A program made the position numbers and the translations under genes. DNA of 64,000 nt from positions 62,001-126,000 of the forward strand of contig NZ_FQVT01000006.1 of the NCBI RefSeq assembly GCF_900129445.1, in the 5' to 3' direction. Source of the stretch: Salegentibacter echinorum. Lineage in GTDB: Bacteria > Bacteroidota > Bacteroidia > Flavobacteriales > Flavobacteriaceae. A model generated the notes under the pieces. The model made no database searches. It was not told the origin of the DNA and saw nothing but the letters and a program-made list of their open reading frames with translations. Positions 588-36,334 of this stretch are shown here, piece after piece (the first letter of the stretch is position 1; each line of letters starts with the position of its first letter).

Positions 588-602
588 TTATGTATAACAT
601 AA
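588..602. promoter_or_regulatory. Palindromic operator, TATGT-N3-ACATA, before SusC1
   Basis: TTATGTATAACATAA is a perfect 6+3+6 inverted repeat in the 90-bp gap between the lyase and SusC1. A -7-like TACTTTTA (TAnnTTTG type, 7 of 8) follows at 612-619, so the palindrome would lie just upstream of or overlap the -33 region. The same palindrome occurs before several other sialic acid genes here. Its GT-N3-AC core suits a FadR-type GntR regulator, such as the one at 7084-7797 (inference). Confidence 0.6.
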
Positions 603-656
603 AACATTTTATACTTTTAAACTTAAATATTTGTTAACTGCAAAAAAACAAAAACT

Positions 657-3600
657 ATGAAAGACCATACAATTACCAATTTTGGTTCTTTTTATAAGAG
701 CTGTTTACCGCCAAGGAGATTGGCAAAAGACTTAAAAAGCTACTTTCTATTAGTAGTTTTATTCTGTTGCTCTGGTATTGGCTTCGCTCAAAATAAGGAG
801 ATAAACGGAACAATTAAAGACGCTAATAATGTGCCTGTGGTTGGAGTGAATGTTATTGTACAAAATACCACAAATGGAACACAGAGTGACTTTGATGGTA
901 ATTATTCTATAACTGCAGCTCCTGGAGATGTACTTGTTTTTAGTTTTATCGGTTTTAAAAATCAGGAACGTATAGTAGGTACCGATGATACTATTAATGT
1001 TGTTATGGAAGAAGACCTTGCAAGTTTAGACGAAGTAGTAATCACTGGTTATGGGAAGCAATCCCGTGCAAAGCTTACAACTTCGGTTGCAAAAATGGAT
1101 ACCCGTATTCTGGAAACTTCTACAAGATCTAATGCTGCAACAGCTTTACAGGGAACCATTCCTGGATTAAGAGTAACCAACACCACCGGGCAACCGGGAT
1201 CAACACCTGATATTGTACTTAGGGGCGGAACAAGTTTTGATGGCTCTGGTTCACCTTTAATTCTTATAGATGGCGTTCCAGGAAGTTTTTACGCTTTAAA
1301 TTCCGATGATATCGAATCTATCGAAGTTCTAAAAGATGCCGCGGCAACGGCTATTTATGGTGCAAGAGCAGCAAATGGAGTTGTATTAGTAACCACTAAG
1401 TCTGGTGAAGGTGGAAAAACAACTATTACCTATAAACAAAAATATAGCATCAATTATGAAAGGGAAACACCTGATTATCTGGATGCTGCAAATTTTATAA
1501 AATACAATCGTCAGGCAGTTTTATACTACAATGAAGCAACCGGAAGAAATAACTTTGACGCCGGATTTCTAAACGGTGCCCTGGCTTTTGGAACGGGAGG
1601 TAACACGACAAACTCTCCTTTTACTACTCAATATTTAACCAATGAAAACAGGTATTTATTAGATTATCCCGGCTGGAATACCGTGACAGACCCTGTAGAT
1701 CCCAGTAAGGAAATTCTGTTTCGTCAAAATAATGTAGGGAAAGATATTTATCAACCCAGTACTTCTACCGAGCACTACATCGGTTTTCAGGGAGGAAATG
1801 AGAAAGGTTCTTATTATGCAAGTTTGGGGTATTTAGATAACGACGGGCTCATTCTCGGTTCTGGCTTTAAAAGATATTCAGGAAAATTTACCGGATCTTA
1901 TAATATTTCAGAAACCTTCAAAGTAAATTCCAATATTCTGTATTCCCATTCCAATTTAAATTTAAGTCCATTAGGAAATAACAATACAGTGTTTAGAAGA
2001 TTTGCGGGTCAGGCACCTACTTCAAGGACCTATAATAATAATCCAGATGGAAGTATATCTGATGATTTAAACCCAGGTACGAATTTCGGATTTGGAAATC
2101 CTTTATATTATCAGGATAAATTTATTCGTGACAATCTGGAACAACGTCTTACTGCTTCGGTAGGCATAGATTGGGATTTAATGTCTAATTTAACTTTTTC
2201 ACTTACGGGAAGTCATTTTACCGTGAACAATTTAAATGAAAATTTTAATAAGGCATATTTAAATGGAAATTCTTTAATCGAAACACGAAACGCTTCTGCC
2301 AGTACCGAAAAGACATTGAGAAATCAAATTACAGGTACTTTAAATTATACCAAAACCTTCGATAAACATTACTTCGATTTATTATTGGGTGCTGAATATT
2401 ACAGAGATGAATATTTTAGCTTTTCGGCTGGAACGAAAAATTCTCCAACCGACTTAATTCCAACTTTAAACGCCGGCGCTGAAGCAAATGGAGTGCCTTA
2501 CAGCTATAGAACACTTCAGGTGATTGCTTCTGGTTTTGGACGACTAAATTATGATTATGACGATCGTTATCTTTTAGGTTTAACCTTTAGGTATGATGGT
2601 TCATCCAGATTGGGAAATAATAAATATGGATTTTTCCCGGGACTATCTGTAGGATGGAATTTACATAATGAAAACTTTTTCCAGGATTCTTCCATAAACA
2701 ATGTTTTTACCAAAATTAAACCAAGAATTAGTTACGGGGTAAACGGTAATCTCGCATCCCTGGCTTTACCAGGTCAACCTGAACGTACTGCTAACTTTGT
2801 ATCTTTCGGTTCTTACGGTTCACAAGGAGTTTATGACGGGCAAACGGGTTATGCCAATACAAGGTTACCCACGCTTGATTTGCGTTGGGAACGTTCTACA
2901 ACACTCAACTTTGGGCTGGATATGTCCCTATTTGATAATCGAATCAACTTAATTGCCGATTATTTTATAAGAGATGTTGAAGATAAAATTTCAGATTTAA
3001 CATTACCCTATTGGACAGGTTTTGGCTCTATTAGAACCAATAATGGAATCTTAAGAAATAAAGGATTCGAATTGCAATTGGGAGCCGATATTGTTAGAGG
3101 TGAAGGTTTTCAATGGTCGGTGAATGGTACTTTATCAAAAATTAAAAACTTTGTAGTAGAGTTGCCAGAAAATGACAACGAACTTAACCGCCAGGGGGGA
3201 ACCCAAATTTATAATCCCAGCACCGGGGAACTGGAATATGTTGGAGGATTACAGGAAGGAAAACGCGTTGGGAATGATATGGTAGTTACTTATGTGCAGG
3301 ATTATATTTATGCAAACCAGGCCGAAGTAGATGCCGATTCCAATGTTCAGGATGATTTCCTTCCAGATCCATTTAAGCGATACCCCGGTGACGTAGCTTG
3401 GGTAGATACTAATGGTGATGATATTATTAACAGCTTCGACAGACAGGTAATAGGAAGAACCACCCCCGATTTTTACGGAGGACTTTCCACAAACATGAGC
3501 TATAAAAACTTTAGTTTATACGTAAAAACAGATTTTGCGACCGGTCACGTTATTTATAACCATATTCGTGGAAAAGGTTTAGCTCAAACCCAGGGTAACC

Positions 3601-3956
3601 TTAACCAGGATGCTTTAGTTTTAGACTCCTGGACTCCCCAGAATACCGATACCGATGTACCGAGGTTTGTTTTTGTTGACGCACAGGATAATATCTTTAG
3701 AGGTGGCGAAGGAACGGTAAACAGTCGCTTTTGGGAGAAAGGAGATTATTTAGCTATTAGGGAATTAACGCTTAGCTATGATTTACCTACAGAAACATTT
3801 ACCGATAAAATTAAAAAGTTAAGCTTATATGTAACGGGAACTAACCTGCATTACTTTAAAAGTTATAGTGGGGATACGCCAGAGCAAGGAGGATATCAGG
3901 CCGGACAATTTCCGTTACCCAGGACTTTTACTTTAGGACTTAATTTAACTCTTTAA
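657..3956 (+). CDS. SusC/RagA TonB-dependent outer-membrane transporter (SusC1, NanO-like)
   Basis: This is a 1099-residue SusC-type porin for TonB-driven import of glycans or Neu5Ac across the outer membrane. After an unusually long n-region (about 28 residues) comes a hydrophobic signal ending at about residue 45 (GIGFAQ). Next come a carboxypeptidase-D-regulatory-like domain (residues about 47-115), the linker and TonB plug opening (VVITGYGKQ, then LRGGTSF and LILIDGVPG), and a long beta-barrel ending in TFTLGLNLTL with the terminal aromatic/Leu pattern of outer-membrane barrels. A SusD-type lipoprotein follows 13 bp downstream. Position between a sialate lyase and a sialidase suggests a NanO-type role, as described for NanO/NanU in Tannerella and Bacteroides. 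Ligand specificity is inferred from neighbours only. Confidence 0.93.
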   Translation: MKDHTITNFGSFYKSCLPPRRLAKDLKSYFLLVVLFCCSGIGFAQNKEINGTIKDANNVPVVGVNVIVQNTTNGTQSDFDGNYSITAAPGDVLVFSFIGFKNQERIVGTDDTINVVMEEDLASLDEVVITGYGKQSRAKLTTSVAKMDTRILETSTRSNAATALQGTIPGLRVTNTTGQPGSTPDIVLRGGTSFDGSGSPLILIDGVPGSFYALNSDDIESIEVLKDAAATAIYGARAANGVVLVTTKSGEGGKTTITYKQKYSINYERETPDYLDAANFIKYNRQAVLYYNEATGRNNFDAGFLNGALAFGTGGNTTNSPFTTQYLTNENRYLLDYPGWNTVTDPVDPSKEILFRQNNVGKDIYQPSTSTEHYIGFQGGNEKGSYYASLGYLDNDGLILGSGFKRYSGKFTGSYNISETFKVNSNILYSHSNLNLSPLGNNNTVFRRFAGQAPTSRTYNNNPDGSISDDLNPGTNFGFGNPLYYQDKFIRDNLEQRLTASVGIDWDLMSNLTFSLTGSHFTVNNLNENFNKAYLNGNSLIETRNASASTEKTLRNQITGTLNYTKTFDKHYFDLLLGAEYYRDEYFSFSAGTKNSPTDLIPTLNAGAEANGVPYSYRTLQVIASGFGRLNYDYDDRYLLGLTFRYDGSSRLGNNKYGFFPGLSVGWNLHNENFFQDSSINNVFTKIKPRISYGVNGNLASLALPGQPERTANFVSFGSYGSQGVYDGQTGYANTRLPTLDLRWERSTTLNFGLDMSLFDNRINLIADYFIRDVEDKISDLTLPYWTGFGSIRTNNGILRNKGFELQLGADIVRGEGFQWSVNGTLSKIKNFVVELPENDNELNRQGGTQIYNPSTGELEYVGGLQEGKRVGNDMVVTYVQDYIYANQAEVDADSNVQDDFLPDPFKRYPGDVAWVDTNGDDIINSFDRQVIGRTTPDFYGGLSTNMSYKNFSLYVKTDFATGHVIYNHIRGKGLAQTQGNLNQDALVLDSWTPQNTDTDVPRFVFVDAQDNIFRGGEGTVNSRFWEKGDYLAIRELTLSYDLPTETFTDKIKKLSLYVTGTNLHYFKSYSGDTPEQGGYQAGQFPLPRTFTLGLNLTL

Positions 3957-3969
3957 AAAAGAAATAAAC

Positions 3970-5478
3970 ATGAAATATGCATATATACTTTTGGCTTTAC
4001 TCACGCTAAGTGCTTGTGATAGCCAATTAGAAGTCGAAGCCCCAAGTGATCTTACATTTAATGGATTTTGGGAAGGTGAGAATGGTGTAAGAGCAGCTCA
4101 TACGGGTCTTTATGGTACCTTTCGCGGTGCTGCGAATACCACCTGGGTATTGGGTACTATGAGAAGCGATGTTTGGGGTGGCCAAACTTTTGAATCTCCT
4201 TTTTACCAGGATTTTATTGAATCTAAAATAACCGTATCTACAGCACCATTTGGCGGTTGGGCAGGTTATTACTCCAGAATTCATAAAATAAATGATTTTC
4301 TGGTAAATGTACCGGAAATTGAATTTAATAACCCAGAAGATAAAGATCACATGATTGGTGAGGCTTATGGGTTAAGAGCTTACTATTACTACACCTTGTT
4401 AAAAACCTGGGGTGCTGTGCCCATAACCACAGATGTTTTAAGTACTACAGATCCAGAGGGGCTTAGTAAGGCGAGATCATCTCAGGAAGAAGTAATGCAG
4501 CTTATAAAAGATGACCTGGAGCGATCTTTAGAAGCTTTTGGAGATGATGCTTCTTTTTGGAACGGTAATAAAAATTATTGGTCCAAAGCAGCTACACTTA
4601 CCTTAAAAGGAGATGTTTACATCTGGTCTGGTAATTTATTGGGAGGTGGTAACTCAGACTTTAATACTGCGAAAGATGCCTTACAGGAAGTTATGGGAAT
4701 AGGTAACTTAGGCTTGGTTTCCAATTACGAAGATCTATGGGGAGCAGATAATGAAAATAATAATGAATTTATTTTCGCGGTACAATATGCTGAAGATGAA
4801 GCCGGAAACTTCTTTAATTCCTTCACGGGAAGAAGTACCGAGATCTGGCCACAATATAACGACGATGGAAATTCTATGGAAGGTTTTGTAGTAGAGGGTG
4901 CAAACCGTTATGGTCCTAGTGAAAAAACACTCATAATTACAGATGATAACGAGGATGCCAGAAAGGATGAGACTTTTATAAGGTTGTATAGCGACTCGAA
5001 TAACGGTGAAGGATATCCAAACTACAACGCCGATAAGTATTATGGTTCAATTCTTAAAAAGTTTCTTGGTAGAATAGATGGAAGTGTAAGAATATTTGAT
5101 AGTGATCTTCCTATTTATAGATATGCCGATGTAATTTTACTACTGGCAGAAGCTAAAAATCATCTGGGCGAAGATCCATCTGAGCAGATTAATAAAATAA
5201 GGGAAAGAGCTTATGGTGTGGATTACGATCCTGCCGTAGATGCTTATTCTTCTGGCTCTATGGAAGAAAATACCGAAGCCATTTTAGATGAACGCTATAA
5301 AGAGTTTATTGCTGAAGGAAAAAGATGGTGGGACCTACGAAGAGCCGGGGATAGTTATGTGATAGACAATGTAGAATTCCTACAACCTGGAGACGAATAT
5401 AAATTATTATTGCCTATTACTTTAGATATGATTGGTAGAAATCCTTTGTTAGAACAAACTCCGGGTTACCAACAATAG
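3970..5478 (+). CDS. SusD/RagB-family surface glycan-binding lipoprotein (SusD1, NanU-like)
   Basis: This 502-residue protein starts with a type II signal peptide whose lipobox is LSAC (Cys16). It has the SusD N-terminal TPR-like segment (GEAYGLRAYYYYTLLKTWGAVPI) and the C-terminal RagB/SusD signature around YRYADVILLLAEAKN and ERYKEFIAEGKRWWDLRR. It should cap the SusC1 barrel at the cell surface and present ligand to it. It is co-directional and 13 bp behind SusC1, so the two are surely one operon, and a hairpin terminator follows. Given its neighbours the ligand may be Neu5Ac or sialylated oligosaccharide (inference). It differs clearly from SusD2 (661 residues), so the two pairs probably take different ligands. 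Confidence 0.93.
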   Translation: MKYAYILLALLTLSACDSQLEVEAPSDLTFNGFWEGENGVRAAHTGLYGTFRGAANTTWVLGTMRSDVWGGQTFESPFYQDFIESKITVSTAPFGGWAGYYSRIHKINDFLVNVPEIEFNNPEDKDHMIGEAYGLRAYYYYTLLKTWGAVPITTDVLSTTDPEGLSKARSSQEEVMQLIKDDLERSLEAFGDDASFWNGNKNYWSKAATLTLKGDVYIWSGNLLGGGNSDFNTAKDALQEVMGIGNLGLVSNYEDLWGADNENNNEFIFAVQYAEDEAGNFFNSFTGRSTEIWPQYNDDGNSMEGFVVEGANRYGPSEKTLIITDDNEDARKDETFIRLYSDSNNGEGYPNYNADKYYGSILKKFLGRIDGSVRIFDSDLPIYRYADVILLLAEAKNHLGEDPSEQINKIRERAYGVDYDPAVDAYSSGSMEENTEAILDERYKEFIAEGKRWWDLRRAGDSYVIDNVEFLQPGDEYKLLLPITLDMIGRNPLLEQTPGYQQ

Positions 5479-5860
5479 GAAATAAGAATACATTAAATTT
5501 TGAATTAGCAAGAAAAGGTCACGTAAGTGGCCTTTTTTCTTTAACACATCCTGGTAAACTATCCCGTGGTGGACTTATGAAAGGTCTTTATAGTTATTGC
5601 CCTCCTATAAGTATCGGGGTAGATCTAGATTATCGTGTAATTTTTAATTGAACTCATTTAAATTTTTGAATTGTAGCCAAAAATTAGACATTTTTCACAC
5701 AATTGAAGACTTTTTTGAGTTGCATAGCATCGCTACGGAACGAAAAAAAGATAAAAATTTTTCAGCCAACTGATAAAGTTTAATCGAGTTCGTTAATTTA
5801 ATTGGTATTATTTTAAATTAGAGCTTTAAATTGAAATACAATTCTATAAAAAATATAGTT
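5479..5860. other. Intergenic: terminator, then decayed non-coding DNA
   Basis: Holds the SusC1/D1 terminator near its left end, then A/T-rich sequence with no supported gene. No copy of the TATGT-N3-ACATA palindrome was seen here, so the downstream sialidase has no obvious operator of its own. Confidence 0.5.
5513..5542 (+). terminator. Rho-independent terminator after SusC1/SusD1
   Basis: The 10-bp stem AAAAGGTCAC / GTGGCCTTTT (one T-G pair) has a GTAA loop and runs into a T-tract. It lies 34 bp after the SusD1 stop and separates the SusC/D operon from the sialidase. Confidence 0.75.
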
Positions 5861-7024
5861 ATGAAATCACCTTCATTTTTTATCACAAAATACTGCGCTA
5901 TACTTCTTGTATTATTTGCTGCAAGTAATAATGAACCTGCTTTTGGTCAAAAAGTATCAAAATATAACAACACTGTTTTTAATGCCGGGGAAAATGAAAT
6001 AGATTCCTATAGAATCCCTTCACTGGTTACTACTAAAAAAGGAAATTTACTTGCTTTTAGTGAAGCACGAAGATTAAGCTCTACCGATAAAACACCCACA
6101 AACATTGTTGTTAAAAGAAGTACAGATAATGGTAAAACCTGGTCTGCAATGCAGTTTATTACCCAGGGGAAAAATGATGCTTATATGGATCCGGTGGCTT
6201 TAGTAGATAAAGTTACCGGCAAAATTTTTCTTTTTACAAACCGATGGCCCCAAAACGATCACAGTATGAAAAAGAACACTAGCTGGCTTATAACGTCCAT
6301 AGATGATGGAGTAAGTTGGTCGCAACCCAAAAATATAACCAATAAAATTACTGCGCCGGGGCATTTTATGAATGGCTTTGGCCCGGGTTCTGGAATCCAA
6401 ATGCAAGGCGGGAAATTTAAAGACAGGCTTATATTACCTACTCGTCAATATGATGGAGAAATACTGGGAAATAGAACAGTGTACAGCGATGATCACGGCG
6501 AAACCTGGCAAATTGGAGAAAAGGCCTCTTTAGGAGGGGAATTTGAGATTGCTGAAAGTCCAAAAGATACACTTATTTTTAACCTGCGTGCCGGAAAAGG
6601 AGAGCGTAAAAAAGCCTGGAGCTATGACGGAGGCGTTTCCTGGACCCAAGCTGTAGTGGATAAACAATTAGAAACTACTAAAGATTATGGAGGATGCCAT
6701 TCCAGTATTTTGGGAATGGATGATTTATTATATTTTTCTGGACCTGCCGGCGGGAAAACAGATAGTTTACATGAAGACCGTTTAAATCTTAAGCTTTATA
6801 AAAGCCCAGATGGAGGAGAAACCTGGCCAAATAATATCTTGCTGTTTGAGAAAGCCGCTGGATATAGTGACATCACAGCACTCCCAAATGGCGATCTTGC
6901 TATAATTTTTGAAACAGGAGATACCCAGGGTTTCCCTAAAATGATTCCTGGCAACAGGCCACCAGGCTGGATGCGTATTGATGTGATAGTGATTTCTAAA
7001 AATTCTTTAAAAAGCAATTTTTAA
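5861..7024 (+). CDS. Secreted exo-alpha-sialidase, GH33 (BNR repeats)
   Basis: This 387-residue sialidase hydrolyses terminal sialic acids from glycans in the periplasm or outside. The ATG at 5861 is preferred over an in-frame TTG 30 bp upstream because it gives a normal Sec signal peptide ending near AFGQ (residue 30). It has the YRIP arginine motif at residues 50-53, a second Arg in FSEARR (about 70), and five Asp-box motifs (STDNGKTW, SIDDGVSW, SDDHGETW, SYDGGVSW, SPDGGETW). It also has an acidic stretch EFEIAE and the nucleophile-type Tyr in AGYSDI. Unlike the second sialidase at 30717 it has no lipobox. It is alone between a terminator and the convergent regulator gene. Linkage preference cannot be read from sequence. 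Confidence 0.92.
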   Translation: MKSPSFFITKYCAILLVLFAASNNEPAFGQKVSKYNNTVFNAGENEIDSYRIPSLVTTKKGNLLAFSEARRLSSTDKTPTNIVVKRSTDNGKTWSAMQFITQGKNDAYMDPVALVDKVTGKIFLFTNRWPQNDHSMKKNTSWLITSIDDGVSWSQPKNITNKITAPGHFMNGFGPGSGIQMQGGKFKDRLILPTRQYDGEILGNRTVYSDDHGETWQIGEKASLGGEFEIAESPKDTLIFNLRAGKGERKKAWSYDGGVSWTQAVVDKQLETTKDYGGCHSSILGMDDLLYFSGPAGGKTDSLHEDRLNLKLYKSPDGGETWPNNILLFEKAAGYSDITALPNGDLAIIFETGDTQGFPKMIPGNRPPGWMRIDVIVISKNSLKSNF

Positions 7025-7083: not shown

Positions 7084-7797
7084 CTATTTCTGAAAAATGG
7101 CATCAAAATGAGGTTCTAAATGTTGCCGCATGGCATTCCTAAAAGTTTCAGGTGTTCCTATTTTTATATTATCAACCAACATTTTATGGGTGACAAACTT
7201 CCCTGTAGAATAACGATATTCAAAATCTTCGGGCTTGTTTTTTAAATGCACATATTCAAAAACGGGAAATAATAGTTTTTGATATTTTATAAGGGTTTTA
7301 TTTTGTGAAATTTCATAAAGCTTCCCGTGAAAAGCAATTTCTCGTTCCAGCCCAAAGCTAATCCTTTTGGCTTCTGCTTCCTCTTCGGCATTGACCATAT
7401 CTTCCAATTCCTGAATATCTTTATCCGTTTTTCGGGCAAAAATGAAATCGGCCATTCCCATTTCTAAAATAAGACGCAACTCGAATAGATTCTTTAAGGT
7501 ATCCATGCCTAATAAAGTAGGATCCATAATCCTGGCGAAATTGGCAATAATATCGGGTTCCGTTAAAATCATTCCGCGATGCTTTTTAGATTCGATTAGC
7601 CCCAGGGTTCTTAACCTTAATAAAGCTTCGCGTATTACTGTTCTACTTACTCCCAGAGTGTCAGCAAACTCTAATTCTTTAGGAATGGCGTCCCCGTGTT
7701 GGAGTTTGTTTTCTTTGAAAAATTCTAATAATCTAATTTCAACTTTATCTACTAAAGAAAGTGTTTCTACCGGTTTTAATCTTTTATAATTCTTCAT
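7084..7797 (-). CDS. GntR-family transcriptional regulator, FadR (FCD) subfamily
   Basis: This is a 237-residue cytoplasmic DNA-binding regulator. The N-terminal winged helix includes GDAIPKELEFADTLGVSRTV and the recognition region VIREALLRLRTLGLIE. The all-helical FCD effector domain (residues about 95-230) contains acidic/His positions (EREIAFHGKLYE, THKMLVDNI) typical of metal- and carboxylate-binding members. E. coli NanR, which senses Neu5Ac, belongs to the same family. The gene is divergent from the GH29 gene, and a palindrome TATGT-AAT-ACATA lies between them. I infer that it controls the palindrome-bearing genes of this locus, with Neu5Ac or a catabolite as effector. Neither the effector nor repression versus activation can be shown here. 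Confidence 0.88.
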   Translation of the reverse strand: MKNYKRLKPVETLSLVDKVEIRLLEFFKENKLQHGDAIPKELEFADTLGVSRTVIREALLRLRTLGLIESKKHRGMILTEPDIIANFARIMDPTLLGMDTLKNLFELRLILEMGMADFIFARKTDKDIQELEDMVNAEEEAEAKRISFGLEREIAFHGKLYEISQNKTLIKYQKLLFPVFEYVHLKNKPEDFEYRYSTGKFVTHKMLVDNIKIGTPETFRNAMRQHLEPHFDAIFQK

Positions 7798-7883: not shown

Positions 7884-7896
7884 TATGTAATACATA
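7884..7896. promoter_or_regulatory. Palindromic operator between GntR regulator and GH29
   Basis: TATGTAATACATA is a perfect TATGT-N3-ACATA palindrome, 87 bp upstream of the regulator start and 81 bp before the preferred GH29 start. A -7-like TTAATTTG follows at 7909-7916 on the plus strand. It could serve autoregulation and control of GH29 (inference). Confidence 0.6.
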
Positions 7897-7976: not shown

Positions 7977-10187
7977 ATGATCAAAAAAATTTCAAGCTTA
8001 GTTTTCCTATTCAGTATATTCTCTGGCTTTGCCCAACAGGCAATAGAAATGCCGGTTTCTAATACTATTAAAATTCAGGATAGTGATTCTAAAAGCGACA
8101 TTATTACCAAAGCTGCTCACGTGGTACCTACTCAAAATCAACTAACCGCTTTAAAAGACGGCTTTATCGCTTTTATACATTTTGGGCCCAATACGTTTAC
8201 AAAGAAGGAATGGGGTACAGGCGAAGAAGATCCAGAAGTTTTTCAATTAGAGAATTTAGATACAGATCAATGGTGTAAAGCCATTAAAGATGCCGGAATG
8301 ACCAAAGTAATCTTCACCGCCAAACACCACGATGGTTTTGTACTATGGCAAAGTCGTTATACAAAACAAGGGATTATGTCTTCGCCATTTAGAAATGGAG
8401 AGGGCGACATTATGAAAGCATTGGCAAAGTCTTGCGAAAAATATGGTCTAAAGCTAGGTGTTTATCTTTCTCCGGCAGATTTATACCAAATTGAGAATAA
8501 AGATGGGCTTTATGGAAATTTAAGTGAAGCTTCTCTTAGAACAATTCCCAGAAAAGTAGAAGGCAGGCCTTTTGAAAATAAAACAACTTTTGAATTTAAA
8601 GTAGATGACTACAATGAGTATTTCTTAAACCAACTTTTTGAATTGCTTACAGAATATGGTCCTATTCATGAAGTTTGGTTTGATGGGGCGCATCCAAAGC
8701 GCAAGGGCGGACAAACCTATAACTATGCTGCCTGGAAAGAATTAATACATACTTTGGCTCCTGAAGCTGTTATTTTTGGCAAAGAAGATATTCGCTGGGG
8801 CGGAAATGAATCTGGGGAAACTCGCAAAACCGAATGGAATGTAATCCCGTTTAAAGGCAATCCTAATAATTTGGAGGTTTTTGGCGATCTCACTGCCGAT
8901 ACACTTGGAAATAGGAGTCAGTTGTATGACGCGGAATATTTACACTATCAGCCGGCCGAAATCAACACCAGTATTAGAGAAGGTTGGTTTTATAGGGATG
9001 AAGAAACACAGAAAGTACGCAGTGCCGATGATGTTTTTGATATTTATGAACGCGCAGTTGGTGGAAACGCTATATTTCTACTAAATATGCCTCCCAATCG
9101 TGAAGGTTTGCTTTCTCCTGAAGATGTGGGTGTATTAAAAGAAGTAGGAGAGCGCCTGGAAGAAACTTATGCCGAAGATCTTTTTAAAGAGGCTGAAGCG
9201 AATGAAGCTTTACTGGATAATAACCTGGAAACTTTTAAAATTACGAAGGACAATAATGAATTCATTAATATTAAAACCAAACAGCCGGTTACCATAAATA
9301 GGGTGTTACTTCAGGAAGCGGTTGCAACGCACGGGGAAAGAATTGAAGAACACAGTTTCGAAGCGAAGATTAATGGAGAATGGCAAGAGGTTGCCCGGGC
9401 AAGTAATGTTGGTTTTAAACGCATTTTAAGGTTTCCGGAAATAACTTCAAACGAATTCAGGTTAAAGATTTTACAATCGCGCTTACAACCTGCAGTTGCA
9501 AAAATATCTGCGCATTTTTATAAAAAGCGTCCGCCACAACTTGAGATCTCAAGAGATTCAGAAGGAATGGTGAGAATTGAACCTAAAAAAGATGAATTTA
9601 CCTGGAAACGAGATATGTCACAAGTTCCTGAAACAGCTAAAGTTGAAATTAAATATTCCTTAGATGGTGTTACCCAAAGTTATAAAGATAGTTTTAGACT
9701 GAAAGAAGGAACGGTAGAAGCTTATGCTGTAAAAGATAGTTTACAGGGCAGTACTGCTTCCAGAACCTTTGGGATGCTAAAACAAGACTGGAAAGCCACT
9801 GCCGATAGCTTTAGTGGGGAAAACAGTCCGCAATTAGCCATAGATGCAAATGAAAATACATTTTGGATTTCCGGACCTAAGGGTTCTCCGCATTACCTGG
9901 AAATCGAGATGCAGCAGAAAAAACAAATAAAAGCATTTAGTTATACGCCAAAAGCTTCAGAGAAGATGAGTATGATTGAAAAAGGCGAGATCAAAATTAG
10001 TGAAGATGGAGAAGAATGGGAAACGGTATCAAATTTTGAATTTGGAAACCTTATTAATGATCCTACTACAAGAACTCACTATTTTGAAGAACCTATTAAT
10101 ACCAGGTTTATAAAAATTGAAGTAAAACGAATTGCCGGCGATGGAAAAACTGCCGCTGCGGCAGAAATAGACTTTTATTCTAAATAA
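7977..10187 (+). CDS. Alpha-L-fucosidase, GH29, with C-terminal beta-sandwich domains
   Basis: This 736-residue secreted enzyme removes alpha-L-fucose. The ATG at 7977 is chosen because it opens a clean signal peptide (cleaved near SGFAQ, residue 19). The upstream in-frame ATG at 7866 would place the operator inside the gene and add a Lys/Arg-rich leader. The catalytic (beta/alpha)8 part has FIHFGPNTF, AKHHDGF and EVWFDG, in which D236 is the expected nucleophile. The overall layout resembles GH29 subfamily B (alpha-1,3/1,4, Lewis-type). After residue about 470 come a chitobiase-C-like strand region (VEIKYSLDGV) and an F5/8 type C-like region (PQLAIDANENTFWISG). It is controlled from the shared intergenic region with the GntR gene. 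Confidence 0.92.
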   Translation: MIKKISSLVFLFSIFSGFAQQAIEMPVSNTIKIQDSDSKSDIITKAAHVVPTQNQLTALKDGFIAFIHFGPNTFTKKEWGTGEEDPEVFQLENLDTDQWCKAIKDAGMTKVIFTAKHHDGFVLWQSRYTKQGIMSSPFRNGEGDIMKALAKSCEKYGLKLGVYLSPADLYQIENKDGLYGNLSEASLRTIPRKVEGRPFENKTTFEFKVDDYNEYFLNQLFELLTEYGPIHEVWFDGAHPKRKGGQTYNYAAWKELIHTLAPEAVIFGKEDIRWGGNESGETRKTEWNVIPFKGNPNNLEVFGDLTADTLGNRSQLYDAEYLHYQPAEINTSIREGWFYRDEETQKVRSADDVFDIYERAVGGNAIFLLNMPPNREGLLSPEDVGVLKEVGERLEETYAEDLFKEAEANEALLDNNLETFKITKDNNEFINIKTKQPVTINRVLLQEAVATHGERIEEHSFEAKINGEWQEVARASNVGFKRILRFPEITSNEFRLKILQSRLQPAVAKISAHFYKKRPPQLEISRDSEGMVRIEPKKDEFTWKRDMSQVPETAKVEIKYSLDGVTQSYKDSFRLKEGTVEAYAVKDSLQGSTASRTFGMLKQDWKATADSFSGENSPQLAIDANENTFWISGPKGSPHYLEIEMQQKKQIKAFSYTPKASEKMSMIEKGEIKISEDGEEWETVSNFEFGNLINDPTTRTHYFEEPINTRFIKIEVKRIAGDGKTAAAAEIDFYSK

Positions 10188-10834: not shown

Positions 10835-12034
10835 CTATGGGTCAAAAATACTCAATTGACCTATGTTTTTTGTTGTTATTTCTTCGTATTTTGAGTCTGG
10901 GTTTTTCAGGAATTTGAACAGGTCAATGTAGGTCATCAAATGATACCGTATTACGGACATCATATTGGAATATGCCCAGTTCCTTTCTGCTTTTCTTTGT
11001 ATGACAAGCATTATAAGCTGAATGATTAAACTGACCCAAATTTGTATTTCAATCGCATTTTGGTTATCGCCCAAAAAGTATTTAAGTGGGAAGTTCTGTT
11101 TGAGCCTTTTGAACAAGGTCTCTATCTTCCAGCGGTTTTTGTAGATATCGGCTATCTTATCGGCTTCCAGTTCATAGTTATTGGTGATGAACTCATACAC
11201 TTTGCGTTTCTCTTCGTGCCAAAAAGCTATTCTCCTGAGTTGGAACTCCCCGTTCTTTTTATCGATAAGTGTGATTTTTTCATCTTTTAGGACAGCGTCG
11301 TCCACCTTGTCCGGTATATCAAACTCCTCAAGGCTTGTGTAGCGGGCATTGTCCTTTTGCCTGGTCACAAAATAGATATCGTCCAAGGTCCATTGTTGGT
11401 ATTGCTTATAATCCACATAGCCTTTGTCGAAGACAACGAAAGAATCTTTTTTCAAATCGAGTTCTTTTAAAAACACATGGTCGTGGGTGGCCGCATTTGA
11501 AAACTTTATCAAGCAGGGAACATCTTCCATTGCATTTATCATCGTGTGCATCTTTATCCCGCCTTTCTTTTTACCGCCCATCGGATTTCTGCCAACACCC
11601 TTCAGGATATCACTAAAGAGCGTTATCGTTGAAGAATCGACTATTTTGAGGTCTTTTACGGCAGGCTCCCTGGTTCTGCTGTCCGATAAAAAATGACGAT
11701 AGCGTTTGTATAGCAAACCATAAATATCCGCAAAGACTTCCGCGCTCCTTCGCTTGTTGGCATCGGATAATGTGCTGCGTTTTGGAAAGTCCTTTAAGCC
11801 CAAATGGTTGATCTTGCCCTCGCAGGCGAGCATTATGCTGGAGACTTCACGAAGCGAGCTGCTACCGCTGATCACGGAGAATATCATCGTGACCAAGTGC
11901 TCGTAGGTCGTGAACTTTTTAGTGTACTTATCGCTATTATGCTTCTTCGCTGTCCGGTAAACATCATTGTGATCCAAGAACTTTAAAACCTGTTTGATAA
12001 TGGGTTGTCCGCTAAAGTTTTTACTTTTGTTCAT
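10835..12034 (-). CDS. IS4-family DDE transposase
   Basis: This 399-residue transposase has an N-terminal DUF4372-like helical domain (residues about 1-90, with LVTMIFSVISG and LREVSSIML), then a DDE_Tnp_1 catalytic domain. The first Asp is in KIVDSSTITLF and the second in VVFDKGYVDYKQY. The YREK-like region YKNRWKIETLFKRLKQ carries the catalytic Glu. The ATG at 12034 is preferred to a TTG at 12061. There is no frameshift or stop, so it is probably functional. It moves the surrounding element by cut-and-paste and has no role in glycan use. Confidence 0.93.
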   Translation of the reverse strand: MNKSKNFSGQPIIKQVLKFLDHNDVYRTAKKHNSDKYTKKFTTYEHLVTMIFSVISGSSSLREVSSIMLACEGKINHLGLKDFPKRSTLSDANKRRSAEVFADIYGLLYKRYRHFLSDSRTREPAVKDLKIVDSSTITLFSDILKGVGRNPMGGKKKGGIKMHTMINAMEDVPCLIKFSNAATHDHVFLKELDLKKDSFVVFDKGYVDYKQYQQWTLDDIYFVTRQKDNARYTSLEEFDIPDKVDDAVLKDEKITLIDKKNGEFQLRRIAFWHEEKRKVYEFITNNYELEADKIADIYKNRWKIETLFKRLKQNFPLKYFLGDNQNAIEIQIWVSLIIQLIMLVIQRKAERNWAYSNMMSVIRYHLMTYIDLFKFLKNPDSKYEEITTKNIGQLSIFDP

Positions 12035-12073
12035 ATATCTGGTTTTTGTGGTAAAAAACAAGATATAAAATAA

Positions 12074-12848: not shown

Positions 12849-13127
12849 ATGGAAGAAATTTGGACAAAAGAAGCAAAATATACCTTTGAGAATAATATTG
12901 ATTTTCTGGTAAATCGTTGGTCTATAAAAGTAGCCGATTCTTTTGCTAAAAAAACGTTCCAATTAATTGATTTGCTTAAAAAAAATCCTGAAATAGGACA
13001 AATTGACGAAAGATGGAGAACCCAGAAAATTTTAGTGGTACCACAGATGTATCTTTTTTATGAAATTCGAGGAAATAAATTGGTTTTACTCTATTTTTGG
13101 AATAACTTCAAACAACCTTTATTTTAA
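12849..13127 (+). CDS. RelE/ParE-superfamily toxin
   Basis: This 92-residue protein has the RelE/ParE fold pattern: N-terminal KEAKYTFENNIDFLVNRW, a helix with KKTFQLIDLLKKNPEIGQI, and C-terminal strands ILVVPQMYLFYEIRGNKLVLLYFWNNF. Members either cleave mRNA on the ribosome (RelE) or poison gyrase (ParE); which applies cannot be told here. Its stop region overlaps by 9 bp the 3' end of a convergent gene for an HTH protein that is probably its antitoxin. Such a tail-to-tail order is unusual, since most type II pairs are one operon. Confidence 0.82.
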   Translation: MEEIWTKEAKYTFENNIDFLVNRWSIKVADSFAKKTFQLIDLLKKNPEIGQIDERWRTQKILVVPQMYLFYEIRGNKLVLLYFWNNFKQPLF

Positions 13128-13427
13128 TTTTTCTTTTATTCCTTCCAATATTTCGCTCCTGGTATAAGTTCTACCGTTTTCAATATCATCTTTACTCCTT
13201 TTTAAACCTTGCTCTAAATCATAGGCATAAGCTTCTTTAGGTTTTATTAAACGAATAATTTTTAAAGCTTCATCTGGCGTGAAAGAATTGGTTTTTAATT
13301 TTCGATAAAAAGTTGGTGTACTTATTCCCACTTCGCTGATTATATAGCTTTTTTTATAAGGAGAATTATCTATTAATTCTTCTATGTCATTTAAAATATT
13401 CTTGTATTCGATAATTTCTTTTATCAT
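13119..13427 (-). CDS. HTH-type probable antitoxin, convergent with RelE/ParE toxin
   Basis: This 102-residue protein has an N-terminal helix-turn-helix (about residues 28-55, KSYIISEVGISTPTFYRKLK, then TPDEALKIIRL). Its charged C-terminal tail (DDIENGRTYTRSEILEGIKE) resembles the toxin-wrapping tails of antitoxins. It is encoded opposite the toxin and overlaps it by 9 bp at the 3' ends. The assignment as cognate antitoxin is inferred from adjacency and tail type. It could instead be an independent XRE-like regulator. Confidence 0.65.
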   Translation of the reverse strand: MIKEIIEYKNILNDIEELIDNSPYKKSYIISEVGISTPTFYRKLKTNSFTPDEALKIIRLIKPKEAYAYDLEQGLKRSKDDIENGRTYTRSEILEGIKEKLK

Positions 13428-13804
13428 ATTTGAAACTTTTTCATATCGTTTAATGATAAAGATAAGTAATAAAAATAATAATTCATAATATAGACAAGTA
13501 GTGTCTGATAAAAAATTTAAATACTCTAATAACTCCGATGTTGAGCTACCACAGGCTTTATTTACATTTTTGTTGTTTATTTATATGTAGAACATGCGTG
13601 TTACGAAATACAAAAAATAGTTAATTTTGTTTATCAGATAGTTACAACCAAGTTGTCTTTCTTTATTCTCGAGGCGCAGCGGCCGGATTCCAATAACTAT
13701 CGGAAGTTTCGGGATTGATGCTTTAACCAAATAAAAATCCCACAGGATTTAAATAAAAATATCCTGCGGGATTTATTCATAATCAATTACAATAGGCGAA
13801 TTTT
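13428..13804. other. Intergenic: upstream of antitoxin, terminator at right, no gene
   Basis: A/T-rich non-coding sequence with the GH20 terminator at its right end. One near-match to the operator palindrome (TATGT-AGA-ACATG at 13584-13596) has no matching downstream gene of the regulon. Confidence 0.4.
13729..13771 (-). terminator. Terminator after the large GH20 gene
   Basis: On the minus strand TCCCGCAGGAT pairs with ATCCTGTGGGA (one mismatch) around an A/T loop and is followed by TTTTTATTT. It lies just past the GH20 stop. Confidence 0.75.
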
Positions 13805-23755: not shown

Positions 23756-26700
23756 TTAAAAATTAATATTAAGTCCGGCAGAAAGCACTTGCGAATAAGG
23801 ATAGGTTTTACCATCACTCCAGCCTCCTAATCCAACAGATTCAGGATCAAAAATATCGATCATTTTAGAGAAGGTAAGCAAGTTTTCACCAGAAATATAA
23901 ACTCTAATTCTCGAATCGTTATAAGAATTAAATGAATAACCCAGTTGCACGTTTTTTAGTCTTATATAAGAAGCATCCTGGATATAACGGGATTGAGTTT
24001 GTTGATTTTTACCACCATTAAAAGAAGGTCGTGGGTAGTAAGCATCCAGGTTAACATCGGCCAGGCCAGCCTGTACCATAGGCGATTCTTCATTTCTGAA
24101 ATAATCCATATGTTCTTCAAAGCCGGCAGATTGCCACATTCCTCCATTAGCACCCCAGAAATATGGGCCATTTGGCATATAATCCCTTTTTCCAAAGCCT
24201 TCTATGAAAACTCTAAAATCAAATCCTTTGAAATCTCCACTTAAATCAAGTCCAAACCTGTAACGAGGCGTAGAATTTCCTAAAATGCTTAAATCGCCGG
24301 TGTCTCCTAAAGTACCATTACCTGAATTAATTTCTCCATCTCCATTTAAATCGGCATACATAATATCACCCGCTTGCCAGTCACTTCCTAATTGACTTTG
24401 GTTTGTATTAGCTAAGTGATTTTGCATTTCTTCGTCGGTTTTGGCAATTCCTACTGTAGTGTATCCCCAAATTTCGCCCATTTTTCTACCGTTATACCAG
24501 TCCGAAATGCTGTTTGTTGGATTTGGATAATTCACTACTTTCTGTTGAGAATCAGATAATACTCCTCTTACGCTATAATTGAAATCACCAATGCGATCTC
24601 TCCAATTTATTTCCAGTTCAAAACCGTAAGATTCCATATCGGCATTGTTAATACGGGGTACTGCAGTACCAAGAATAGCAGGTAGTTCAGGAGCAGGCCC
24701 TACCATGTCTATAGTTTTTCTATTAAAGTATTCTGCACTTAAGTTTAGCCTGTTTTTTAACAGAGCCATATCAAATCCAGCGTTCCAGCTTTTTACCCTT
24801 TCCCAGGTTAAAAGCGAACTAACCAGTCCTGGAGCACTTGCTGTATTTGGTCTTTCACCGTTTAATAACCAACCACCATTTGCAGTACCTATGGGCATAG
24901 ATTGGTAGAACGGGTACCAATTATTGGTGTTTTGGTTTCCAAGTTCGCCATAAGATCCTCTTAGTTTTAATAGTTGAATACTATCCCATTTCCAAAAGTC
25001 TTCTTTTGCGATATTCCAACCAGCCGAGATTGAAGGGAACAGGTTCCAGCGTTTATCGTTTATAAACCTTGAGGAACCGTCATATCTCGCATTGAGTTCT
25101 AACAGATATTTTTCTTTAAAATTATAGTTTAACCTTCCAAAGAAACCGGCAACAGACCAATGCTGATATTGACCTTCGGTGGCCTTACTTTCATCTGTAG
25201 CTGTGTTAATAGTTGGCAAATCAGGGGTAATTAATCCACTTCTGGAAGCACCTATGGTTCTATATTTGGTCACTTCAGAATTAAATCCGGCCATAAGCTT
25301 AAAATTATGGTCCTGGTTGATATCAAAAACATAATCTGAATAAATATTGGTGCTGAAATAATCTTCTTTTCTATTGTATTCGTAAACTGAACTGTAACCC
25401 GGGGAATTCCAACCCACAGAGACAGGGTAAGGATTTCCGGCAACATCATAACCATAAGCAGGTAGAACGTCTACGTGATTATTGGTGTTGGTAACTTTAT
25501 AATTTCCAATGGCATAAATATTCCAATTTTCAATAGGGGTAATGGTTAGTTGACCCTGCATAAATAATCTGTCGGTTAAATTATCGGCCCTTCCACCATC
25601 TTCTAACTGAATGATTTCACCCGATGAATCTGTAAAATACCCATTAGGATCTCTTACCGGAACAGTTGGCCATCTCCGTGCAATATTGTGATAGAATAAA
25701 CCGCCTTGTTGAGTAGATCTATTGTAGTTTTCTCTCGAAAAACGAGTACTGTAATTAAATTTTACATGTTTAGAAATCTCTGTCCTAAGTTTACCAGTAA
25801 AATCATACTCATCTAAACTGTCTTCCCCATATTCTAATAATCCACCCTGGTCTACTAATCGGGCAGAGGTAAAATAGGTTGTTTTTTCAGAACCTCCACT
25901 TAGGCTTAAATTATGTTCTTGTGAGAAAGAGAAATCTTTGTACAATTCATCAAACCAATCAGTATTAGCATTAGAACCAGTATAATACTGATACCGGTCT
26001 CCATTAGCATTTGGTACGGTTCCATAATCTATTTCCCCCGCCTGGTACTGCACAATTCTGTCAATCACTTCCTGAGAAAAAGGAGGAGCCTGTCCTGCGT
26101 TAACTGCGGCTTCATTCCAATATAAAGCGAAGGTGTGCGAATCCATCATATTTGGAACCTGAATTGGCGACGTAAATCTAAAGTTATTTGAATAAGAAAC
26201 TCTAGGTGCGCCAGATTGGCCGTCTTTTGTAGTAACCAAAATTACCCCGAATGCTGCTCTGGACCCATAAACCGCAGAGGCAGCAGCATCTTTTAGAACC
26301 GTGATAGACTCAATAGTTTGAGGGTTAATTGCATCTAGAGATGCTTCCATACCATCTACTAAAACTAAAGGCGCCGAATTAGATCCTGAGCCAATGGTAC
26401 CTGCTCCACGAATATTGAAATTAAGCCCTGAGTTTAATTCACCCCCGAGCCCTGAAGTTTGGAAGTTTAAACCCGGCACAACCCCTTGAAGCATCTGACT
26501 TACATTGGGTACGGGTCTTGATTGTAAAACCTCTGAGTCAATCGTGGTAACTGCCCCGGTAAGATTAGCCTTCTTTTGGGTACCATAGCCTACAACAACA
26601 ACTTCTTCCAAAGCTGATGCTTCTATTTCTAATTGAATATCTAATGAAGCGTTTCCATTTACTGGAACTTCCTTCCTGGCATAACCTACATATGTAATAG

Positions 26701-26914
26701 TTAAAACGGCATCTGCGGGAACATCTATACTAAATTCACCGTCAAAGTTGGTCATAACGCCATTTGAAGTTCCTTTCTCTATAACATTAGCACTCGGTAC
26801 AGGAACCCCTGTATCTGCTTCGGTAATCTTACCTTGTACGGTAATTGTTTCTTGAGCCCAGCTAACGGTACCCAATAAAACAAGCAAAAGAAAAAATACG
26901 TAATTCTTTTTCAT
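23756..26914 (-). CDS. SusC/RagA TonB-dependent outer-membrane transporter (SusC2)
   Basis: This 1052-residue protein has a normal signal peptide (ends near SWAQ, residue 20). A carboxypeptidase-D-regulatory-like domain (about 22-98) follows, then EEVVVVGYGTQKKANLTGAV with the SusC plug (LVLVDGMEAS, VYGSRAAFGVILVTTK). The barrel ends in VLSAGLNINF with the C-terminal Phe expected for BAM recognition. It is the first gene of the minus-strand cluster SusC2-SusD2-sulfatase-sulfatase. A palindromic operator lies 43 bp upstream at 26957-26969. It does not look like a recent duplicate of SusC1. Confidence 0.95.
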   Translation of the reverse strand: MKKNYVFFLLLVLLGTVSWAQETITVQGKITEADTGVPVPSANVIEKGTSNGVMTNFDGEFSIDVPADAVLTITYVGYARKEVPVNGNASLDIQLEIEASALEEVVVVGYGTQKKANLTGAVTTIDSEVLQSRPVPNVSQMLQGVVPGLNFQTSGLGGELNSGLNFNIRGAGTIGSGSNSAPLVLVDGMEASLDAINPQTIESITVLKDAAASAVYGSRAAFGVILVTTKDGQSGAPRVSYSNNFRFTSPIQVPNMMDSHTFALYWNEAAVNAGQAPPFSQEVIDRIVQYQAGEIDYGTVPNANGDRYQYYTGSNANTDWFDELYKDFSFSQEHNLSLSGGSEKTTYFTSARLVDQGGLLEYGEDSLDEYDFTGKLRTEISKHVKFNYSTRFSRENYNRSTQQGGLFYHNIARRWPTVPVRDPNGYFTDSSGEIIQLEDGGRADNLTDRLFMQGQLTITPIENWNIYAIGNYKVTNTNNHVDVLPAYGYDVAGNPYPVSVGWNSPGYSSVYEYNRKEDYFSTNIYSDYVFDINQDHNFKLMAGFNSEVTKYRTIGASRSGLITPDLPTINTATDESKATEGQYQHWSVAGFFGRLNYNFKEKYLLELNARYDGSSRFINDKRWNLFPSISAGWNIAKEDFWKWDSIQLLKLRGSYGELGNQNTNNWYPFYQSMPIGTANGGWLLNGERPNTASAPGLVSSLLTWERVKSWNAGFDMALLKNRLNLSAEYFNRKTIDMVGPAPELPAILGTAVPRINNADMESYGFELEINWRDRIGDFNYSVRGVLSDSQQKVVNYPNPTNSISDWYNGRKMGEIWGYTTVGIAKTDEEMQNHLANTNQSQLGSDWQAGDIMYADLNGDGEINSGNGTLGDTGDLSILGNSTPRYRFGLDLSGDFKGFDFRVFIEGFGKRDYMPNGPYFWGANGGMWQSAGFEEHMDYFRNEESPMVQAGLADVNLDAYYPRPSFNGGKNQQTQSRYIQDASYIRLKNVQLGYSFNSYNDSRIRVYISGENLLTFSKMIDIFDPESVGLGGWSDGKTYPYSQVLSAGLNINF

Positions 26915-26956: not shown

Positions 26957-26969
26957 TATGTTAAACATA
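26957..26969. promoter_or_regulatory. Palindromic operator before SusC2
   Basis: TATGT-TAA-ACATA is a perfect match to the shared palindrome. On the minus strand the sequence continues directly as TATATTTA, a 7 of 8 match to the TAnnTTTG -7 element, so a bound regulator would overlap the SusC2 promoter. Confidence 0.6.
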
Positions 26970-27241: not shown

Positions 27242-27254
27242 TATGTACAACATA
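27242..27254. promoter_or_regulatory. Palindromic operator at the epimerase transcription start
   Basis: TATGT-ACA-ACATA is a perfect palindrome lying 3 bp after the -7 element, therefore on the expected +1 site, and 5 bp before the start codon. This position is typical for a repressor that blocks promoter clearance. Confidence 0.6.
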
Positions 27255-27259
27255 TAGAG

Positions 27260-28429
27260 ATGAGGTATTCAGCATTATTTAAGGAAGAATTATTAGAAAA
27301 CGTTATTCCCTTTTGGGAGAAATACTCTTTAGATAAGGAGTTTGGAGGCTATTTTACTTGTTTAACTGAAACAGGTGAGGTTTATGACAGCGATAAATTT
27401 ATATGGTTACAGGGGCGCCAGGCCTGGATGTTTTCCTATTTATATAATAACGTGGCTCAGAAAGATGAGTGGTTAAAAATAGCGAAAAAGGGTATAGACT
27501 TTTTAATAAAGCACGGAATGGATGCCGATGGAAACTTCTATTTTTCAACTACCCGTGAAGGTAAGCCCCTGGTTCAACCTTACAATATTTTTTCAGATTG
27601 TTTTGCGGCTATGGCTTTTGGCCAATATGCTAAAGCTACTGGTGATAAGGAAGTTCAAAAGCTGGCTAAACAGACTTACTTAAATATTTTAGATCGAAAA
27701 GATAACCCCAAAGGGAAGTACGAAAAAAGCACTGGGAACAGACCTTTGAGAAGTTTCGCACTTCCTATGATTCTTTCTAATTTGGTTTTAGAGCTGGAAG
27801 ATATTCTTTCTGAAGATGAAATTCAGCAAACCATAGACTTTAGTGTAAAAGAAGTGATGGATACTTTTTTGCAGGAAGAAAACGGACTCATATACGAATC
27901 CCTCAATCCCGACGGAACTACTAGTGATAGTTTTGAAGGCCGCTTAATTAATCCCGGTCACGGCCTGGAAGCTATGTGGTTTATGATTGCTATTGCAGAA
28001 CGAAACAACGACACACAGTTGATTAATAAAGCCGTAAAAACAATGTTGAATATCCTGGATTTTGGCTGGGATAAAGAACACGGCGGCATCTTTTATTTTT
28101 TGGATGTTAAAGGACACCCAACGCAACAATTGGAATGGGACCAGAAATTATGGTGGGTACATTTAGAAGCCCTGGTTGCTTTGTCGAAGGCCTATTTGCA
28201 TACTAAAGATGATAAGATTTGGGCGTGGTATGAAAAAGTGCACGATTATACCTTTAAGCGCTTTCCCGATCCCGAAAACGGAGAATGGTTTGGCTATTTA
28301 AACAGGCAGGGAGAACCACACTCATCCTTAAAAGGAGGAAAGTGGAAAGGTTGTTTCCACGTACCCCGGGGACTATTTCAATGCTGGAAAACTTTCGAAA
28401 AAATAGAAGCAGAAGGAATTCAGGAATAA
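27260..28429 (+). CDS. nanE: N-acyl-D-glucosamine 2-epimerase (AGE/renin-binding protein family)
   Basis: This 389-residue cytoplasmic enzyme interconverts ManNAc and GlcNAc, the step after the sialate lyase. The ATG at 27260 is preferred over a TTG at 27236 because the latter overlaps the promoter and operator. The (alpha/alpha)6-barrel pattern is clear. The catalytic-site motifs are [10 protein letters not shown] (Arg53), [12 protein letters not shown] (His234) and KGCFHVPRG (His367), with the spacing of the two catalytic histidines known in animal AGE. Bacteroides fragilis uses this epimerase type in its nan operon instead of the E. coli NanE fold. Related enzymes such as cellobiose or mannose epimerases are less likely in this setting. 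Confidence 0.92.
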
Positions 28430-30620: not shown

Positions 30621-30633
30621 ATATGTAACATAT
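30621..30633. promoter_or_regulatory. Operator-like palindrome with short spacer before the lipoprotein sialidase
   Basis: ATATGTAACATAT has the same TATGT and ACATA half-sites as the other operators but only one base between them instead of three. It lies 84 bp upstream of the preferred sialidase start. The changed half-site phasing makes binding by the same regulator doubtful. Confidence 0.35.
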
Positions 30634-34128: not shown

Positions 34129-34168
34129 AACTCCTTTTCTGATCTATTTGGAAAAGGAGTTTTTTTTA
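34129..34168 (+). terminator. Terminator after GH20 lipoprotein gene
   Basis: AACTCCTTTTC pairs with GAAAAGGAGTT (11 bp, perfect) and is followed by a run of eight T. Confidence 0.88.
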
Positions 34169-34224
34169 CTTTTAGGTATTCGTAAGGACTAATGCTAAGC
34201 GTAAATTTTATAAAATAATTTATA

Positions 34225-35778: not shown

Positions 35779-35804
35779 ATGCCGAAAAGCTGTAAATACC
35801 AATT

Positions 35805-36101
35805 ATGATCAAAATTTTGTCCTCAAAAAGATTATTCTATCTAAGCCTAATCATTTTAGGATATTTTGGTTTTTTATATTTAAACGCAAAGGTTTTAAAA
35901 TGGAATAGTTTATTCCTTCAGTTTATAGTGGAATTATTTACTATCCTTTTATTGGTAGGACAAGTGGGGTTGCTTGTTATCGCAGCTATACATTGGAAAA
36001 AAGATAAATTTTCAATAAAAACATACGCCTTTTGGGCGCTATTGATTTTATTGCTCAATAGCTTTTGGACAATTGGATTATGGGTAATGTCAAGAATTTA
36101 A
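35805..36101 (+). CDS. Small three-helix membrane protein, paralogue of the one at 12397
   Basis: This 98-residue protein has three predicted membrane helices (about 8-28, 36-60 and 72-95), with the loop HWKKDKFSIK between helices 2 and 3. No known family is recognised. It matches the product of 12397-12702 from end to end without gaps at about 40 % identity by eye. It sits 26 bp behind the sialate O-acetylesterase gene, so it is probably co-transcribed with it, and is followed by the sialic acid transporter. A role as accessory membrane protein is possible but unproven. Confidence 0.75.
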   Translation: MIKILSSKRLFYLSLIILGYFGFLYLNAKVLKWNSLFLQFIVELFTILLLVGQVGLLVIAAIHWKKDKFSIKTYAFWALLILLLNSFWTIGLWVMSRI

Positions 36102-36319
36102 AGTATCATCGTTCAGCTTAAAAAATTGCGAACAAAATTTAAAGTTTTTCTGCTTGCTCAACAATCGAGATTTAAATGCTCCGAAACTTCTTCGAAATTA
36201 AACTCCGCTTATATTCACGAGGGCTTTTCCTGACGTAGTTTATTCTAATGTAATTTTAAGAGTGAACGTCAAGTAGCCACAATTTTAAAAAACCAAGGAT
36301 AAATCATGAAAATATGTAT

Positions 36320-36334
36320 TATGTTATACATATA
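36320..36334. promoter_or_regulatory. Palindromic operator before the Kelch-symporter gene
   Basis: TTATGTTATACATAT contains a perfect TATGT-TAT-ACATA. A -7-like TATCTTTA follows 8 bp later at 36342-36349, and the gene starts at 36372, a layout close to that before SusC1. Confidence 0.6.

Follow-up and report, generated by a model that had tools for sequence, protein, structure and literature searches.

The palindrome and its proposed target genes

The stretch analysed here (the window) is 64,000 nucleotides of Salegentibacter echinorum DNA, contig C23 positions 62,001 to 126,000. It holds a sialoglycan-use locus in which the palindrome TATGT-N3-ACATA recurs upstream of several genes as the candidate operator of a GntR-type regulator encoded among them. 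Computed here were the positions of the sites, their restriction to this locus within the genome, their conservation, the promoter geometry and the co-occurrence with the regulator. Pfam scans of the locus detected nanA, two SusCD pairs, sialidases, GH29, GH20s, sulfatases, GH16, an epimerase, a SASA esterase and a Kelch/NanM-symporter. The regulator (7084–7797, minus strand; 237 residues; FadR type by Pfam), a proposed repressor, carries a GntR domain (PF00392, 47.2 bits, cut-off 27) and an FCD domain (PF07729, 52.9 bits, cut-off 24.3), and is the sole FCD match in the genome at E ≤ 0.001. By its domains and operator core, it is a GntR protein of the FadR subfamily.

All five perfect copies named in the original prediction are present in the window, the last being one base off its claimed position (36320–36332 rather than 36321–36333). 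Operator 1 (589–601, TATGTATAACATA) is centred 62 bp upstream of the ATG of SusC1 (657–3956, plus strand), a TonB-dependent transporter by Pfam and a proposed target; SusD1 (3970–5478, plus; Pfam) is probably in the same operon, and a BNR sialidase (5831–7024, plus; Pfam) possibly so. Operator 2 (7884–7896, TATGTAATACATA) lies between gntR on the minus strand and the proposed target GH29 fucosidase on the plus strand (7977–10187; Pfam). Operator 3 (26957–26969, TATGTTAAACATA) is 49 bp upstream of SusC2 (23756–26914, minus; Pfam), a proposed target followed by SusD2 (21759–23744) and sulfatases. Operator 4 (27242–27254, TATGTACAACATA) sits on the predicted start site of the N-acylglucosamine 2-epimerase (AGE) gene (27260–28429, plus; NCBIfam AcylGsamEpipAGE above cut-off), with the −7 box TATATTTG beginning 17 bp before its centre; this proposed target is the first gene ahead of GH20, sialidase, GH20 and SASA esterase genes. 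Operator 5 (TATGTTATACATA) is 46 bp upstream of another proposed target (36372–39059, plus; Pfam/NCBIfam), which encodes a single 895-residue protein joining a Kelch/NanM-like mutarotase to a sodium/solute symporter. The 3′ half of nanA occupies 87–566 (plus; full gene C23:61661–62566), and its operator, again TATGTATAACATA, is at C23:61635–61647, ~360 bp left of the window.

The five window sites are intergenic, as had been claimed, after correction of gene starts. The starts given by the open reading frame (ORF) finder, 7866 for GH29 and 27236 for the epimerase, would place two sites inside ORFs. Judged by eye, the likely starts are the ATG at 7977 for GH29, followed by a signal-peptide-like stretch, and that at 27260 for the epimerase, which resembles the starts of its relatives. 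Three weaker copies (at 30621, 32348 and 28568) had also been suggested, and they are unsupported because their scores on an N3 profile (5.1, −8.3 and −3.0, with offsets of ≤4 tried) are at chance level; the seven true sites of the genome score 16.7–27.1 on this profile, which was built from relatives' perfect copies only and is thus biased towards perfect copies. Markov-simulated DNA gave ~1.9 matches scoring ≥4 per 84 kb.

Confinement, conservation and promoter geometry

Dinucleotide-shuffled windows contained a mean of 0.04 perfect copies, and five were reached in none of 100. When up to one mismatch was allowed, the window held 8 copies against 2.3 expected. Among 11,264 palindromes (5-bp half, gap 0–10), TATGT-N3-ACATA ranked second in the window with p = 2.8e-6 relative to base composition. 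Because the p value corrected over all palindromes tried is ~0.03, the window by itself is only moderately convincing. In the 84-kb stretch that extends leftward (C23:42001–126000), the palindrome ranked first, with 7 copies and p = 2e-8 on the same basis. The genome-wide search that had been proposed found exactly 7 perfect copies in the whole assembly (3.96 Mb, 40 contigs), every one at the sialoglycan locus (C23:45098–98332, within 53 kb), and 3 copies of the reversed control pattern. The two copies beyond the window precede nanA (C23:61661) and a GH2 gene (then PNGase F), each with its centre 20–21 bp before the ATG. A genome search with a 23-column profile at E ≤ 10 returned those seven sites alone, with 150 of 4069 first-look candidates scored.

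Conservation was assessed in 58 named loci with GntR relatives, obtained from a scan of named genomes; the two ortholog sets (L010–L039 and L040–L097) partly overlap and are hence not independent, and L010 is the window's own genome. The proposed alignment of orthologous promoters showed the palindrome to be retained: at least one perfect copy was found in 52 of the 58 loci, and 51 had one beside the GntR gene. The 58 loci contain 149 perfect copies. Under an ORF mask that treats 226,949 of 1,132,260 bp (20%) as outside gene bodies, including the first 120 bp of each ORF because gene starts are uncertain, every copy is outside. The copies adjoin nanA, epimerase, GntR, SusC and Kelch-symporter genes. 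Specifically, 24 of 40 sites at SusC entries are 46–69 bp upstream of the called start, and 11 copies adjoin the Kelch-symporter gene. The palindrome is also retained in Neolewinella loci with a GC content of 59–63% (L068 and L069). Conservation extends beyond the 13 bp, with ATAC on the right side at the nanA, SusC and Kelch-symporter promoters, and the extended form of the operator is TATTATGTwwwACATAATAC. The reality of the palindrome is thus confirmed by the genome and the relatives, not by the window alone.

The position of the palindrome relative to the TAnnTTTG (−7) box falls into two types. Of 47 epimerase promoters of relatives, 36 have the first base of the box exactly 17 bp ahead of the palindrome centre, and 25 of 43 nanA promoters have it 15–18 bp ahead. 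Exact boxes in the window's genome are at −17 (epimerase), −15 (nanA) and −18 (GH2) from the centre. A start-site map of a flavobacterium is reported to place this box at −12 to −5 (PMC9723704), and with the fixed box-palindrome distance the predicted start is therefore inside the operator, on the left side of the palindrome. One-mismatch boxes are found downstream of the centre at SusC1, GH29 and the Kelch-symporter gene (+17, +19 and +15, respectively), and the palindrome there would accordingly lie over the −33/spacer region. A further one-mismatch box is present at +7 in the Kelch-symporter promoter, and the palindrome of SusC2 is overlapped by one at +5. In the direction of GntR, TAnnTTTG boxes cluster at +99 to +104 (17 of 51), ~100 bp away, so that a place for the operator within the GntR promoter is not evident. 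Autoregulation, suggested earlier from the site between the regulator and its divergent neighbour, is therefore unsupported by the geometry, though still conceivable; where the epimerase is the neighbour, the operator sits on the epimerase start site.

Association of the site with the regulator

Among 397 genomes of the family, GntR was found in 38 (E ≤ 1e-20) and nanA in 40 (E ≤ 1e-45), and 34 had both, against 3.8 expected. A perfect site within 200 bp before nanA was present in 19 of the 34 genomes with both genes and in none of the 6 nanA-bearing genomes without GntR, in which no perfect site was found in the 9–18 kb around each nanA either. The nan cluster of one of these six (G032; nanA 51%, epimerase 68% and sialidase 65% identical) has neither GntR nor a site, and a genome of the same genus (G258; genus g32) carries the GntR, with two sites on its contig. 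A broad count gave 218 copies in the 38 GntR-bearing genomes (reversed control, 214) and 123 in 37 GntR-lacking ones (control, 187), the latter being the first 37 listed, with the others left out.

In G144, G297 and G329, GntRs of 43–45% identity are encoded next to a SusCD locus that has no nanA, and the palindrome is near SusC and GntR. The L124 locus includes genes for GH28, MIOX, NAGLU and a symporter (uronate-type). The sites with divergent GntRs are at L123:3166 and 8854, L124:2678 and 8548, and L125:7650 and 13430, with palindromes such as TATGTAGTACATA; L123–L125 apparently combine the same operator with a different sugar. The palindrome goes with the protein and not with the pathway, since a GntR of 43–45% identity at a uronate-type locus has it. 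Three control loci with other FCD-GntRs (L197, L198 and L199) had no palindrome; the L197 and L198 proteins are 23–25% identical over 206–227 residues, and that of L199 is 34% identical over 64 residues. Besides three orthologs, five FCD-GntR places were found, of which these three were examined.

Residues E153, H157, H204 and H226 of the FCD domain, which we take to be its metal-site ligands from the residues only, are the same in all 60 aligned near sequences, a set that includes a second copy of one Capnocytophaga-type protein. Such constancy would be expected if, as in FCD proteins, a metal holds a carboxylate effector. Apart from two exceptions, one R and one S, the wing SKK[HR][RK]GM is kept in the near sequences and the palindrome-bearing group of 43–45% identity, and is lost in L126–L128, which are without the palindrome. 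This correlation spans few independent lineages and may serve as a lead.

With copies confined to the locus, retention at orthologous promoters and a site that tracks the regulator, the prediction of a GntR operator and regulon shared across operons held up. Several observations weigh against this interpretation. Seven of the 58 loci have no perfect site beside GntR; five of them are from Capnocytophaga, and in the other two GntR is at a contig edge (L056) or the site has a single mismatch (L082). In the initial ORF calls, 18 of the 149 relative sites fall within an ORF, so that correct starts are assumed. When palindromes found in 10 or more of the 58 loci are ranked by loci over expected, TATGT-N3-ACATA is eighth; the patterns ranked above it occur about once per locus and are taken as conserved coding sequence. 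In 11 of 12 relative genomes, those with complete lists, 33 of 71 perfect copies are within 30 kb of GntR and 38 are elsewhere, and the relatives are not independent of each other. The comparison of 19/34 with 0/6 is modest (Fisher test, p = 0.02), and 15 of the 34 genomes holding both genes have a nanA without its own perfect site. Identity is only 34–38% for five of the six nanA genes from genomes without GntR, and thus only G032 is a close comparison. GntRs of 35–42% identity near nan genes (L126–L128) have no perfect copy. At sites upstream of the −7 box, repression and activation cannot be told apart by sequence.

As a separate observation, in a Capnocytophaga-type genome (G252; L129:8022 and L130) the GntR–epimerase stretch is without the palindrome, and a perfect one is retained by nanA on a different contig, 18 bp ahead of the aligned start.

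Comparison with known regulators and alternative explanations

The regulator resembles Escherichia coli NanR in being a FadR-type GntR with a metal-site FCD domain that is associated with sialic-acid genes, and ~223 residues of the two proteins align (E = 1.6e-7). The palindromes precede nanA, epimerase and transport genes, whose control by the regulator is proposed. The operator of E. coli NanR is likewise placed inside the promoter region, past the polymerase site, and the protein is described as binding zinc and N-acetylneuraminic acid (Neu5Ac) and as occupying GGTATA direct repeats through three cooperating dimers (PMC8012715). The site in the window is, in contrast, one symmetric palindrome, and the likeness to palindrome binding by E. 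coli NanR drawn in the original prediction is misleading because that protein binds direct repeats. An identity as an E. coli-type NanR was rejected: the score against the NCBIfam NanR model (NF003011) was 90.4 bits with a cut-off of 260, the best of 19 NCBIfam matches that were all below their cut-offs, and the window contains no GGTATA-N0-8-GGTATA pair. NanR of Bacteroides thetaiotaomicron (BT0433) is also a predicted local regulator of sialic acid/N-acetylglucosamine genes in Bacteroidota, but it is assigned to the ROK family (PMC3878776), and this identity was rejected for a GntR/FCD protein. AusR of Zobellia galactanivorans (alginate) is reported to be a flavobacterial GntR repressor of a polysaccharide locus that is released by breakdown products (PMC8286568, PMC7874173). 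An AusR-like stand-in, the FCD-GntR beside alginate genes in L198 and not AusR itself, shows 23% identity and lacks TATGT-N3-ACATA within 16 kb. The FadR subfamily shares the GntR and FCD domains and a palindrome with a GT/AC core, and differs in its consensus TKGT/ACMA boxes from the TATGT half-site and ATAC extension found here (PMC4494728). The subfamily trait of an A/T-rich palindrome with GT and AC a few bases apart is seen in TATGT-N3-ACATA, in keeping with a putative operator role.

Other explanations of the palindrome were weighed. At SusC1, GH29 and the Kelch-symporter gene, if not more widely, the GntR could bind its sites to activate, or to act in both directions, as the two placements would allow (on the start site at nanA, epimerase and GH2; 15–19 bp before a one-mismatch −7 box at the three genes named). 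We regard this as unlikely, since the start-site placement at nanA and the epimerase is hard to reconcile with simple activation and a characterised flavobacterial GntR, AusR, is described as a repressor (PMC8286568, PMC7874173). A site of a global Crp/Fnr-type regulator, like the TATGTTnTAnAACATA motif proposed for Bacteroides Crp, would account for the half-site TATGT that is common to both motifs (PMC3878776) without the local GntR. It is quite improbable: the spacing is N3 here and N6 there, the N3 form is confined to one locus, and the palindrome is missing near nanA where GntR is missing. The Crp-like motif was itself rejected, as TATGTTN4AACATA occurs just twice in the genome and not at many sugar genes.

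At nanA and the epimerase, most of the motif would be transcribed near the start codon, and it might therefore work as RNA, folding into a small hairpin within short 5′ leaders, or be a part of the promoter. At the Kelch-symporter gene and SusC1, however, transcription probably starts downstream of it, little stability is to be expected of a 5-bp A/T-rich stem, and the presence of the motif goes with that of GntR; we consider such a role very improbable. Chance recurrence in A+T-rich DNA draws on the corrected value for the window alone and is negligible, being refuted by the location of 7 of 7 genome copies at the locus and by the 149 copies in the relatives at matching genes and spacings.

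Proposed mechanism and biological meaning

The stretch to the left of the window (L008, C23:42001–62000) contains a palindrome-bearing GH2, PNGase F, two more SusCD pairs, a LytTR response regulator and a histidine kinase, a gene content that suggests N-glycan foraging. Judged by its genes, the locus fits the use of sulfated sialo-N-glycans or similar. A DDE transposase (DUF4372) lies at 10835–12061, between GH29 and the GH20/sulfatase block. Two short genes at 12850–13440 resemble, by eye, a RelE/ParE-type toxin-antitoxin pair, and a short ORF at 17742–18242 with only GH20 domain 2 (PF02838) is possibly a gene remnant.

Taken as a whole, TATGT-N3-ACATA is likely the operator of the local FCD-type GntR repressor of sialoglycan use, which would act like NanR; DNA binding, repression rather than activation and the effector are what we infer from sequence. 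One GntR dimer would bind each palindrome, making contact at the GT-N3-AC core. The bound dimer would cover the predicted transcription start just after the TAnnTTTG box at nanA, the epimerase and GH2, and at SusC1, GH29 and the Kelch-symporter gene it would occupy the −33/spacer region, upstream of a −7 box that is weaker. Bound GntR would thereby keep RNA polymerase off the promoters. Upon release and import of sialic acid, an acid or sugar of the pathway, most likely Neu5Ac and possibly N-acetylmannosamine, would enter the metal-containing FCD pocket. This effector would free the dimer and jointly induce the genes for import, desialylation, lyase, epimerase, fucosidase and galactosidase.

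A wider history is offered more tentatively, as possible but short of probable. The sialic-acid regulon of a separate FCD-GntR repressor clade in Flavobacteriia and some other Bacteroidota (Neolewinella, Portibacter and a Cyclobacteriaceae bin) may have arisen with no evolutionary link to those of E. coli NanR and the ROK-type NanR of Bacteroides. The clade would have kept the operator TATGT-N3-ACATA and the DNA-contact wing SKK[HR][RK]GM while sister members moved to other sugars, as at the uronate-type locus. Operator specificity would then be frozen and effector specificity shifting, with one effector unlocking the whole foraging locus for sulfated sialo-N-glycans.

No description of this GntR or operator was found among open-licence papers by title or start of abstract; known earlier were the alginate GntR (AusR) in a flavobacterium and the sialic-acid ROK protein in Bacteroides. 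The sequence data indicate a new case of a known kind of gene switch, in which the palindrome is the landing site of the neighbouring GntR-type repressor. The regulon could be used for finding sialoglycan loci, and the operator may be suited to an inducible promoter. The divergent relatives would form a natural series in which a GntR keeps its DNA site while changing its sugar. For marine flavobacteria, the analysis provides a concrete and testable regulator, operator and gene set for the scavenging of sialic acid.

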